Source: Bacteroidota bacterium
Lineage (GTDB): Bacteria; Bacteroidota; Bacteroidia; Chitinophagales; Chitinophagaceae
NCBI GenBank assembly: GCA_026391455.1
Contig: JAPLEH010000001.1
Span: forward strand, 1 to 64,000
Direction: 5' to 3'
Length of the DNA: 64,000 nt
Each line of letters begins with the position of its first letter. Within the stretch, counting starts at the first letter, position 1. Both the position numbers and the translations under genes were made by a program. The notes below the pieces were generated by a model. That model was given only the letters and a program-made list of their open reading frames with translations. It was not told the DNA's origin and searched no databases. Positions 2,136-22,662 of the stretch are shown in pieces.

Positions 2136-5100
2136 AAAAATAATTGCCACGATTGATGGTAATGAAGCTGCTGCCTATGTGGCTTACCGGGTGAACGAAG
2201 TATGTGCGATCTATCCCATTACACCATCTTCCACCATGGCAGAACTCGCTGATGAATGGTCATCCAAGGGAGTAAAGAATATATGGGGACATATACCCGA
2301 TGTGATCGAAATGCAGAGTGAAGGCGGTGCAGCCGGTACCGTACACGGTGCATTGCAAACCGGTTCACTCACTACTACGTTCACCGCTTCACAGGGATTG
2401 ATGCTCATGCTGCCCAATATGTATAAGATCGCCGGTGAATTAACTCCTGCGGTATTTCATGTAGCAGCGCGCTCACTGGCAGCACAGGGGCTTTCTATTT
2501 TTGGCGATCATCAGGATGTAATGGCCGCCCGCACCACGGGCTTTGCCATGCTGGGTGCCGCCAGTGTACAGGAAGCACACGATTTTGCACTCATTGCACA
2601 AGTGGCCACGCTACGCGCACGGATACCGATCGTACATTTCTTCGATGGGTTCCGCACCTCCCATGAAGTGAATAAACTGGAGATGCTGCGCGACGAACAG
2701 ATCCGCGCTATGATGAAAGACGAACTGGTGATTTTACACCGTAGCCGTGCCCTCAATCCGGATCATCCATTCATTCGTGGTACAGCTCAAAATCCCGATG
2801 TGTATTTTCAGGGAAGAGAAACCGTGAACAGTTATTATAATGCTATGCCCGGCATTATGAAAGAGGTGATGCAGGAGTTTGAACAATTGACCGGCCGGCA
2901 TTACGACCTGTTCGAATATACCGGTGCTCCGGATGCCACGCGTATCATCATCATCATGGGTTCCGGCAGCGAAACGGTGGGGGAAACAGTGAAGGCATTG
3001 AATGCAGCCGGAGAAAAGACTGGTGTGATAACCGTGCGTTTATTCCGCCCCTTTTCCCTTGAACATTTTATCAAGGCAATGCCCTCTTCGGTACAAAAGA
3101 TCGCCGTATTGGATCGCACCAAAGAGTCCGGTGCTTCCGGTGAACCCATGTACCAGGATGTATTATCCGTATTGGTGGAAGCACTGCAACGCGGCCTCAT
3201 TACCCGTTTGCCCAATATCTGCGGAGGCCGTTATGGGCTTTCTTCTAAAGAGTTTACGCCCGCCATGGTAAAAGCGGTATTCGATGAATTGAAAAATGAA
3301 CACCCTAAAAATAATTTTACAGTCGGTATCAATGATGATGTAACGCATACCAGTCTTTCCTACGACCCTGCTTATACGCTCGATGAATCTTCCTGGCGGC
3401 AGGGACTTTTCTTTGGACTGGGTGCAGATGGTACGGTAGGTGCCAACAAGAATACCATTAAGATCATCGGGGAGAATACTGATCTCTACGCACAGGGTTA
3501 TTTTGTATATGATTCCAAAAAATCAGGTGCACGCACCGTTTCACATTTACGTTTTGGCCCGCAACCCATCCGCGCTCCTTACCTGATCTCGAAAGCCGAT
3601 TTCATTGCCTGCCACCAGTTCAACTTCACGGAGAAAGTGGAGATGCTGGAATTTGCCAGCGAAGGGGCCACTTTCCTGCTCAACAGTCCGTATGATAAAG
3701 AGGAGGTATGGAATAAACTATCGGGCCAGTTACAAAAGCTTATCATAGATAAAAAAATAAAATTCTATTTGATCGATGCCACCACCGTTGCCCGTGATAA
3801 TGGTATGAGCGGACGCATCAATACCATTATGCAGACCTGCTATTTTGCATTGTCAGGTGTATTGCCCAAAGAGGAAGCGATCGCACAGATCAAAAAAGCC
3901 ATTGAGAAAACGTATTATAAGAAAGGCAAAAAGGTCATTGAACAGAACTTCATTGCAGTGGATGCCACACTGGCCAACCTGTATGAAGTGAACTATCCTA
4001 AGAAAATAACTGCTGAAGACCATGCCCTGCTCACCGTATCTGATCAGGCCCCTGCATTTGTAAAAGAAGTAACGGCCCTGATGATGGCCGGACATGGTGA
4101 TGAATTGCCGGTGAGTAAAATGACTGTGGATGGCACTTATCCCAGCGGTACCACCAAATGGGAAAAACGAAATATTTCTGATCTGGTGCCTGTGTGGGAG
4201 CCTGATCTCTGTATTCAATGCGGCAATTGCGCGTATGTGTGTCCGCACAGTGTGATCCGGGCGAAATTCTATCACGAGGATTACATACAAAAAGCGCCGG
4301 ATGGATTTAAATCAGCACCCATCAATGCGAGAGGATTTCCGGAAACAAAATATTCATTGCAAGTCTATCTCGAAGATTGTACGGGTTGTAACCTTTGTGT
4401 GGAAGTATGTCCGGCATCTGATCCGGCCAACCGTTCACGCAAAGCCATCAACATGGGTGAGAAAGAACCCATACTGGAAGTGGAAAAACGAAACATCGGA
4501 ATATTTGAGAATATTCCCTGGAATGATCGTTCGAAAATTGATTTCTCCACGGTACACGGCGCACAATTCCTCGAACCCTTGTTTGAATTTTCCGGTGCAT
4601 GTGCCGGTTGTGGCGAAACCCCTTATCTGAAATTGTTGTCACAATTGTTTGGCGACCGCCTGCTCGTTGCCAATGCTACCGGTTGCTCTTCTATCTATGG
4701 TGGTAATCTGCCTACTACTCCCTGGGCGGTGAATGCGGCAGGCAGGGGACCGGCCTGGTCTAATTCATTGTTTGAAGATAACGCTGAATTCGGATTGGGT
4801 ATGCGCATTACAGCAGATAAGCAACTGGACATGGCGCGGCAATATCTCACTATCATGAAAGAGGAAGTGGGCGCAGCGCTGGCCGATTCCATTCTCAATG
4901 CTACTACTGTGGTGGAATCTGAATTGAATGAACAACGCGATCGGGTGGAGCAACTGAAATTGAAGTTGGCAGAAAGTAAACATGCAGATGCGCCATTGCT
5001 TTTATCTGTTGCTGACCAGTTGGTGCGAAGAAGTGTATGGCTTGTAGGTGGTGATGGCTGGGCATACGATATTGGTTATGGCGGTCTGGATCATGCATTG

Positions 5101-5697: not shown

Positions 5698-5719
5698 ACT
5701 GAAAATATGACTTGATAAC

Positions 5720-5900
5720 CATTATTGTCCGGGGAAAGTTTTTGCAGAACCCTGAAACATTGCCCCAGAGCGGGTTCTAGCCCCTCTCCTTTGGGGTTTC
5801 TGAGTACGCACAACGTGCAGATGAAAGAAACGCGCGTAGCGCTTGGGGAGAGGTCTGAATTGATTTACAAACTAATAAATAGTTTTACCGGATAACAATA
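5720..5900 (+). mobile_element. MITE-like element, copy 1, flanked by a 9-bp direct repeat
   Basis: A non-coding element of 181 bp whose left end CATTATTGTCCGG matches the inverse of its right end (TATTGTTATCCGG) at most positions. It is flanked by the direct repeat cttgataac (5711-5719 and 5901-5909), which looks like a target-site duplication. A second, inverted copy lies at 21956-22095. Outside the middle, the two copies agree nearly base for base over about 60 bp on the left arm and 45 bp on the right. This copy carries about 41 extra bp in the middle, including the small hairpin GCACaacGTGC. No transposase is encoded, so movement would need a helper elsewhere. Confidence 0.7.
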
Positions 5901-5925
5901 CTTGATAACCGTGAAATAATACAGT

Positions 5926-21877: not shown

Positions 21878-21955
21878 TATAAATTAAAAAATCAAAAAGC
21901 AAAATTCCAAATTCCATCCCACCTCAAATGGGCTGTTTCATTTATAATTCTAAAC

Positions 21956-22095
21956 CATTGTTGTCCGGTAAAACTATTTATTAGTTTGAAAATCAATTCA
22001 GACCCCTCCCCAACCCCTCCCAAAAGGAGAGGGGCTAGAACCCGCTCTGGGGCAATGTTTCAGGGCTTTGCAAAAACTTTCCCCGGACAAAAATG
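21956..22095 (-). mobile_element. MITE-like element, copy 2, inside the nuo operon, 9-bp direct repeat
   Basis: A 140-bp element in opposite orientation to the copy at 5720-5900. The left end CATTGTTGTCCGG and the complement of the right end CATTTTTGTCCGG agree at 12 of 13 positions. It is flanked by the direct repeat attctaaac (21947-21955 and 22096-22104). Compared with copy 1 it lacks about 41 bp in the centre. It sits between nuoC and nuoD. Caution: attctaaa also belongs to the local low-complexity repeats, so this target duplication is less certain than that of copy 1. Confidence 0.7.
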
Positions 22096-22133
22096 ATTCT
22101 AAACTCTGCACTCTACCCTCTCCCCGGCTGTTC

Positions 22134-22165
22134 ACCTACCTGCGCTATCGCTACGGCAGGCAGGT
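22134..22165. repeat. REP-like hairpin ACCTACCTGC...GCAGGCAGGT
   Basis: A 10-bp stem with one mismatch around a 12-nt loop, next to MITE copy 2 in the nuoC-nuoD gap. The arm GGCAGGCAGG is shared with the palindrome at 7154-7173. Confidence 0.5.
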
Positions 22166-22188
22166 TCATAACTCTAAATTCATAATTC

Positions 22189-22662
22189 TCAAAGCCTGAT
22201 CATATTCACTGCATCCTCAAAATCCTTTCGCAACGGATTCTTGCCTTCCCAGCCATCGGGTAATATCAGTAACCGGAGATCGGGATGGTTGATAAAATTC
22301 ACCCCAAACATTTCATATACTTCCCGTTCGAGAAAATCGGCGCTTCTCCAAATATTGGATACTGTTTCCACTGCTGGTTTAGTCCGATCCAGTTTTACTT
22401 TTACCACCAGTGTATGCCGGTGTTTCGTAGAGCTTAGGTGATAGACCATGATGAGATGGTTCTTTGCCGCAGCGGTTTGCAGTCCGTCGATACAAGTAAG
22501 GCAAAAAAGATAATCGAAAAAGAGGTCCTCCAGATTACGGAGGGAAGATGCGAAGGAAGGCCATGCTTCTGGCGAAGTAACCGCGTTTACCCATTCTCCT
22601 TCTTCAAAGGCGATGTCAGGCAGCAGTTCAGTAATACGGGCTTTCAGTTCTTCGTTCAGCAT
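22189..22662 (-). CDS. nuoC: NADH-quinone oxidoreductase subunit C (30-kDa type)
   Basis: A 157-residue peripheral subunit. The diagnostic region is near the C-terminus: FLEREVYEMFGVNFINHPDLRLLILPDGWEG, followed by PLRKDFE. It packs against NuoD and NuoI and has no cofactor. It starts 2 bp after nuoB. The length is normal for the unfused form. Downstream the operon is interrupted by 311 bp of repeats before nuoD. Confidence 0.95.
   Translation of the reverse strand: MLNEELKARITELLPDIAFEEGEWVNAVTSPEAWPSFASSLRNLEDLFFDYLFCLTCIDGLQTAAAKNHLIMVYHLSSTKHRHTLVVKVKLDRTKPAVETVSNIWRSADFLEREVYEMFGVNFINHPDLRLLILPDGWEGKNPLRKDFEDAVNMIRL

Follow-up and report, generated by a model that had tools for sequence, protein, structure and literature searches.

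Two short sequences with similar ends lie in opposite orientations in the window, by which we mean the whole stretch of 64,000 nucleotides analysed here, and they raise the question of whether they are copies of a mobile element and, if so, which enzyme moves them. An earlier note, made from the sequence alone, had described them as a MITE-like element with inverted ends and 9-bp direct repeats, and both copies are present where it placed them. Copy 1, of a 181-bp class, occupies positions 5720–5900 on the forward strand, with the left end CATTATTGTCCGGGGAAAG and the right end (reverse strand) TATTGTTATCCGGTAAAACT, and is bounded by the target site duplication cttgataac at 5711–5719 and 5901–5909. 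Copy 2, of a 140-bp class, occupies positions 21956–22095 on the reverse strand between Complex1_49kDa (nuoD-like) and Complex1_30kDa (nuoC-like) genes, and is bounded by attctaaac at 21947–21955 and 22096–22104.

The size difference of about 41 bp that had been claimed between the copies is real (181 versus 140 bp). The ends are inverted as described, but on the reverse strand copy 1 has the right end TATTGTTATCCGG, two bases off CATTnTTGTCCGG. The longest stop-free stretches are 57 amino acids (copy 1) and 46 amino acids (copy 2), in agreement with the proposed lack of coding capacity. Scans of the window against Rfam (gathering thresholds) and for tRNA genes found nothing. The analysis below indicates that the sequences are very probably copies of a MITE that is a non-autonomous IS4-family element, moved in trans by resident DUF4372/DDE transposases and producing duplications of 9 (sometimes 10) bp.

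Copies and Size Classes in the Host Genome

The host genome (5.5 Mb, 74 contigs) carries the MITE at at least 33 places, represented by 39 match rows of which six are second halves of split matches; this count is a lower bound because 40 of 49 candidates were scored. The further copies that the earlier note had suggested looking for thus exist, many of them with direct repeats and inverted ends: 24 places hold two-ended copies, six hold copies cut by contig ends and three hold truncated copies.

The elements are short, contain no transposase gene and fall into classes of 129, 140, and 181 bp. Calculated from 23 of the 24 two-ended copies (L014 was left out), the mean pairwise distance within a class is 3.6% for the 181-bp class (n = 7), 2.5% for the 140-bp class (n = 10), and 0.9% for the 129-bp class (n = 6), which therefore looks the youngest. 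Judged by eye, the differences among the classes lie between GGGG tracts of the core, and rearrangement between these tracts may have generated the classes. The 140-bp form (window positions 21956–22095 and others) contains GGGGAGGGGTTGGGGAGGGG, or a close approximation to it, which could form a G-quadruplex; by eye, the 129- and 181-bp forms do not have the four tracts consecutively.

Target Site Duplications

Exact 9-bp duplications flank 14 of the 24 distinct two-ended copies (the underlying 9-mer table has 25 rows, L021 being present twice). Two further copies have duplications matching at eight of nine positions (L004 and L030), two have exact 10-bp duplications (attatcacat in L028 and attatcaaat in L150), and six (L006, L007, L014, L015, L016, and L018) have no duplication, which counts against transposition. 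The right boundary of L019 was moved nine bases by hand because its right end has a repeated CGGACAACA; unmoved, this copy scores 3/9, and without it 13 of 23 copies have exact 9-bp duplications.

As a control, the flanks of different copies were compared, and they agreed at all nine positions in 4 of 600 ordered cross-pairs versus 15 of 25 own rows. For 10-mers, compared in 21 rows without L004, L007, and L014 (whose counts come from the 9-mer table), none of 420 cross-pairs was exact. A 9-mer partner was also found for five of six MITE ends at contig edges (C25/C38, C50/C6, and C62 with the left flank of the copy on C74), and the end on C26 had none among the flanks paired. The left 9-mer of L006 is identical to the right flank of the contig-edge copy on C62, which points to recombination between copies or misassembly. 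Terminal inverted repeats and target duplications therefore occur in multiple copies. Counting the last base of the element would give a uniform duplication of 10 bp; many copies agree with this reading, since A precedes the duplicated site in 13 of 15 rows, but others do not, and the 9-bp reading was kept.

The duplicated targets follow the pattern RYTNNNARY in 11 of the 14 distinct exact 9-bp cases, compared with 84 of 4290 9-mers (2.0%) taken from the 150 bases to either side and with 0.4% across the window, an enrichment that is descriptive since the pattern was read off the same MITE sites.

Likely Partner Elements of the IS4 Family

Pattern and family searches identified likely partners in the same genome, namely IS4-family elements with the ends CAYTNNTGTCCGG and with transposases composed of DUF4372 and DDE_Tnp_1. 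A transposase flanked by matching ends, which the earlier note had named as a check, is thus found, and the MITE has its ends in common with full-length IS of its own genome.

The first type (type 1, or CACT type) has the ends CACTGTTGTCCGG and CACTATTGTCCGG, both of which are present on contig C2, where they delimit 1303 bp (3438–4740). Its transposase contains DDE_Tnp_1 (2.2e-27) and DUF4372 (8.3e-21) and is assigned to the IS4 family by NF033592 (217 bits, cut-off 115), giving a name to the family that had previously been left without one. Nine end matches were detected, one of which, on C29, was left out of the pairing as a lone match; 4 of 16 left-right combinations have a common 10-mer, one per end (C32/C31, C53/C22, C57/C2, and C2/C60). 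The two flanks of the C2 copy (L093) come from two different insertions, with partners on C57 and C60, indicating recombination between IS copies or misassembly. By eye, this copy is without a stretch near the 3′ end of the gene that the fragment on C31 has.

The second type (type 2, or CATT type) carries CATTGCTGTCCGGGGAA at both sides and is known only from contig-edge fragments, four left and four right ends, of which the left ones run, by eye, into the start of a similar transposase gene. Exactly 4 of the 16 flank combinations have a common 9-mer, one per end (C7/C47, C8/C68, C35/C43, and C62/C14). DUF4372 matches in the assembly are restricted to C9 and C2 and the interior of type 2 is absent, so that the type 2 transposase is putative.

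Some other candidates were rejected. Pairing of 9-mers identified an apparent third IS type (CATTGCTGTCCGGGGAATTTTT; C14/C43/C47/C68) as the right end of type 2. Another DUF4372 transposase, on C9 (L088; G000:C9:112276-112914), was without such ends at one mismatch, and its apparent ends, CACTAGCGTTGCGT by eye, have a motif unlike that of the others. Lone end-motif matches on C45, C61, C69, and C29 were not regarded as elements and appear, by eye, to lie within coding sequence.

The end motif is also found around related transposases from other genomes. In a raw scan of 15 such loci, it was present on both sides with at most one mismatch in 10, on both sides at two mismatches in three (L129, L130, and L131), and on one side in two (L126 and L127). 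Among the 11 loci with both ends and enough flank to be read, four have exact 10-bp duplications (L120, L122, L123, and L124), one matches at 9 of 10 positions (L125), and six have none (L094, L119, L128, L129, L130, and L131). Five further loci (L088 and L102, which represent one element on C9, L096, L097, and L098) are without the motif at one mismatch, suggesting that it belongs to part of the DUF4372 group rather than to all of it.

Taken together, the dispersed copies, the exact 9-bp duplications and the IS4-type elements with the same ends support the MITE-like transposition that had been claimed. In the mechanism that we propose, DUF4372/DDE transposases of resident full-length IS would recognise the ends CATTATTGTCCGGGGAAAG and YATTGTTGTCCGGTAAAACT in trans, move the MITE and insert it at targets cut with a stagger, which would produce direct repeats of 9 bp and sometimes 10 bp. 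Sequence comparison suggests such an action of the partner transposases on the MITE.

One or Two Transposases

Most of the duplicated MITE copies match type 2 in both duplication length and target pattern, and RYTNNNARY fits all four duplications of type 2 IS, which are independent insertions. It is possible, although doubtful, that the CATT-type IS alone mobilises the MITE and that the two 10-bp duplications arose by chance or later change, a view favoured by the excess of exact 9-bp duplications (14 versus two of 10 bp) and by a MITE target pattern like that of the CATT type. However, both 10-bp duplications have the form AT-N6-AT, as do those of CACT-type IS, and attatcacat is identical to the type 1 10-mer at C32/C31, while the cross-pairs yielded no exact 10-mer. 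The L150 copy, moreover, has a CACTG outer end.

The right end of the MITE also argues against exclusive use by the CATT type. The two MITE ends agree with each other at 16 of 20 bases, and the left end is equally near both IS types, agreeing at 17 of 20 bases with type 2 left ends and with type 1 right ends. The right end agrees at 17 of 20 bases with the type 1 left end and at 15 of 20 with type 2 ends; it is thus nearer type 1 although the duplications and targets favour type 2, a point against the mechanism proposed above. The 10-bp cases, the L150 end and the likeness of the right end lead us to suggest, without insisting on it, that the MITE may be used by both transposases, chiefly by that of type 2. 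A wider proposal, which we put forward tentatively as a real possibility that falls short of being probable, is that two IS4-type transposases with different staggers (9 versus 10 bp) and distinct target patterns serve one MITE, that each duplication records the enzyme responsible, and that the MITE was born when IS ends captured an intergenic palindrome found across the bacterial family.

Insertion Sites in Relatives

Copy 1 is located between pyruvate:ferredoxin oxidoreductase-like and dihydroorotate dehydrogenase-like genes. Its site was matched in 14 of 41 genomes of the same genus, 11 of which have both flanks on one contig; in these relatives the unaligned gap is 9–133 bases long, versus 220–281 in the host genome. 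Subtraction of the element and one duplication leaves 30–91 bases, and the gaps of some relatives are wider than this. When 8 of the 11 relatives were aligned, the spacer proved not to be conserved, so the 9-mer is not comparable across them. At the site of copy 2, 13 of 17 chosen genomes have both flanks adjacent, with a gap of 7–174 bases versus 316–391 in the host genome, or 167–242 without the element, so the element alone does not account for the full length of the host spacer. The empty sites that the earlier note had called for are therefore recovered at the level of gene neighbourhood, as a shorter gap without the element, but not base for base, since no base-exact empty site was found among the relatives compared at either locus. 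Degenerate short-repeat spacers (aactgataactg, agcacattagc) surround many MITE and IS copies, for example at window positions 22105–22190 (by eye).

The flanking gene pairs are co-directional and conserved, and both window copies therefore probably sit within transcribed operons. The conserved gene pairs, together with RNA folding of copy 2 that is better than that of shuffled sequences on both strands (z = −3.5 and −3.8), would suit an element retained for a function in regulation or as RNA, such as a terminator, a spacer hairpin or a G-quadruplex. We nevertheless consider such an element very unlikely: copy 1 (forward strand) reaches a z of only −1.75, the inverted ends alone account for part of the folding, the size of the core varies, and a search of 96 other genomes with copy 1 gave no match (at most eight best candidates scored in each). 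An exact 40-base pattern likewise had no match in a collection of 84,980 species, from which the host genome may be left out, and neither plasmids nor viral contigs, the latter searched by exact pattern, yielded the MITE in sets from which records of the host or near genomes may likewise be left out.

Palindromic Core and Right Arm

The core of the MITE holds the palindrome CCCCTCTCC/GGAGAGGGG, which other genomes of the bacterial family contain on its own. In copy 2 it takes the form CCCCTCTCC-TTTT-GGGAGGGG (22014–22034, reverse strand) and resembles these solitary palindromes. The 140-bp form was compared with 394 genomes of the family, with at most two best candidates scored per genome, and 44 of them matched, the host genome included. 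Matches outside the host genome are only partial (the longest row covers 63 of 140 positions) and fall in the core, at about positions 53–121, in 39 of the 43 other matching genomes and in the right part in the remaining four (G127, G203, G223, and G325). Nine core loci (L166–L174) and L179 all contain the palindrome CCCCTCTCC-TTT-GGAGAGGGG followed by TTGGGG or similar. No flanking pair of IS-like ends was found at these 10 loci, where scattered end-like strings occur, mostly with two mismatches. The stand-alone palindrome is also given as CCCCTCTCC-TTT-GGAGAGGGGTTGGGG in other genomes of the family (39 of 393 others matched the MITE here).

Judging from these loci, the core palindrome resembles a REP in shape and appears to be an intergenic repeat that stands on its own in the family; the MITE may have captured it. 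Ends of an IS would in that case have come to flank a palindromic repeat that existed independently. It is very improbable that the MITE as a whole is instead a fixed REP/BIME-like repeat of intergenic regions that recombination or another enzyme has spread, with direct repeats that reflect insertion into the simple repeats of spacers. In favour of this reading, numerous copies are located (by eye) in spacers containing short repeats, where RYTNNNARY is about five times commoner than in the whole window, and the core palindrome does occur alone elsewhere. Against it, exact 9-mers are far rarer in cross-pairs (4 of 600) than in own rows (15 of 25), IS ends in the host genome have the same kind of duplications, and the 10 foreign core loci are without the flanking ends.

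The exact MITE string CCTTTGGGGAGGGGTTGGGG occurs only in the host genome among 58 genomes. At locus L175 (G223), an end reading CATTAGTGTCCGGTAAAAATATTTATTAGTT is 90% identical to the MITE right end over 31 bases and adjoins, by eye, a fragmentary gene resembling the L088 transposase; the opposite end of this element was not found. The likeness suggests an IS of this sort as the source of the MITE's right arm.

Comparison With Known Elements

The IS4Sa subgroup is described as having 5′-CA ends with T at position 9, a length of 1150–1750 bp, direct repeats of 8–10 bp and a YREK signature (PMC2266710). The partner IS resemble it in all of these features: their ends have the form CA------T (CACTGTTGT / CATTGCTGT), their direct repeats are 9 and 10 bp long, the copy on C2 measures 1303 bp (the size rests on type 1 only), and Y-2-R-3-E-6-K is present as YKQRWQIELLFKRIK at residues 299–313 of the C2 transposase. 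The partner IS thus fits with IS4Sa by ends, duplication length, size and YREK, and these features are the basis of the placement. The MITE differs from IS4Sa in being without a transposase, and the motif TGTCCGG is absent from the passages on which this comparison with PMC2266710 is based.

Other MITEs of Bacteroidota offer partial parallels. MITECca01 of Cardinium cOegib, about 240 bp long and present in 169 copies, has a parent of the IS982 family (PMC9769881). It is likewise a lineage-specific MITE with the ends of a resident IS and is reported to be absent from other sequenced strains of its genus, but it differs in its IS982 parent and in that no captured palindromic repeat features in the parts of its description compared here (PMC9769881). 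BrickBuilt of Porphyromonas gingivalis is also intergenic and is found at 19 places in ATCC 33277; its described core, a 23-nt minisatellite, sets it apart (PMC4596501). Literature searches by DUF4372, end motifs and core palindrome found no paper on the present MITE family among the matches listed. This kind of element is well known; what is new is the MITE family itself, its likely partners, the two duplication classes and the shared palindromic core.

These results tie an unnamed repeat to DUF4372 IS4-type transposons and provide a group of these transposons with target patterns and the end motif CA[CTG]TNNTGTCCGG. With duplications of two lengths, the MITE offers a natural record of cross-mobilisation that can be tested, and its shared palindrome hints at one route by which a MITE could acquire its core. 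These elements mark the ends of several contigs of this genome, and knowledge of them aids assembly.
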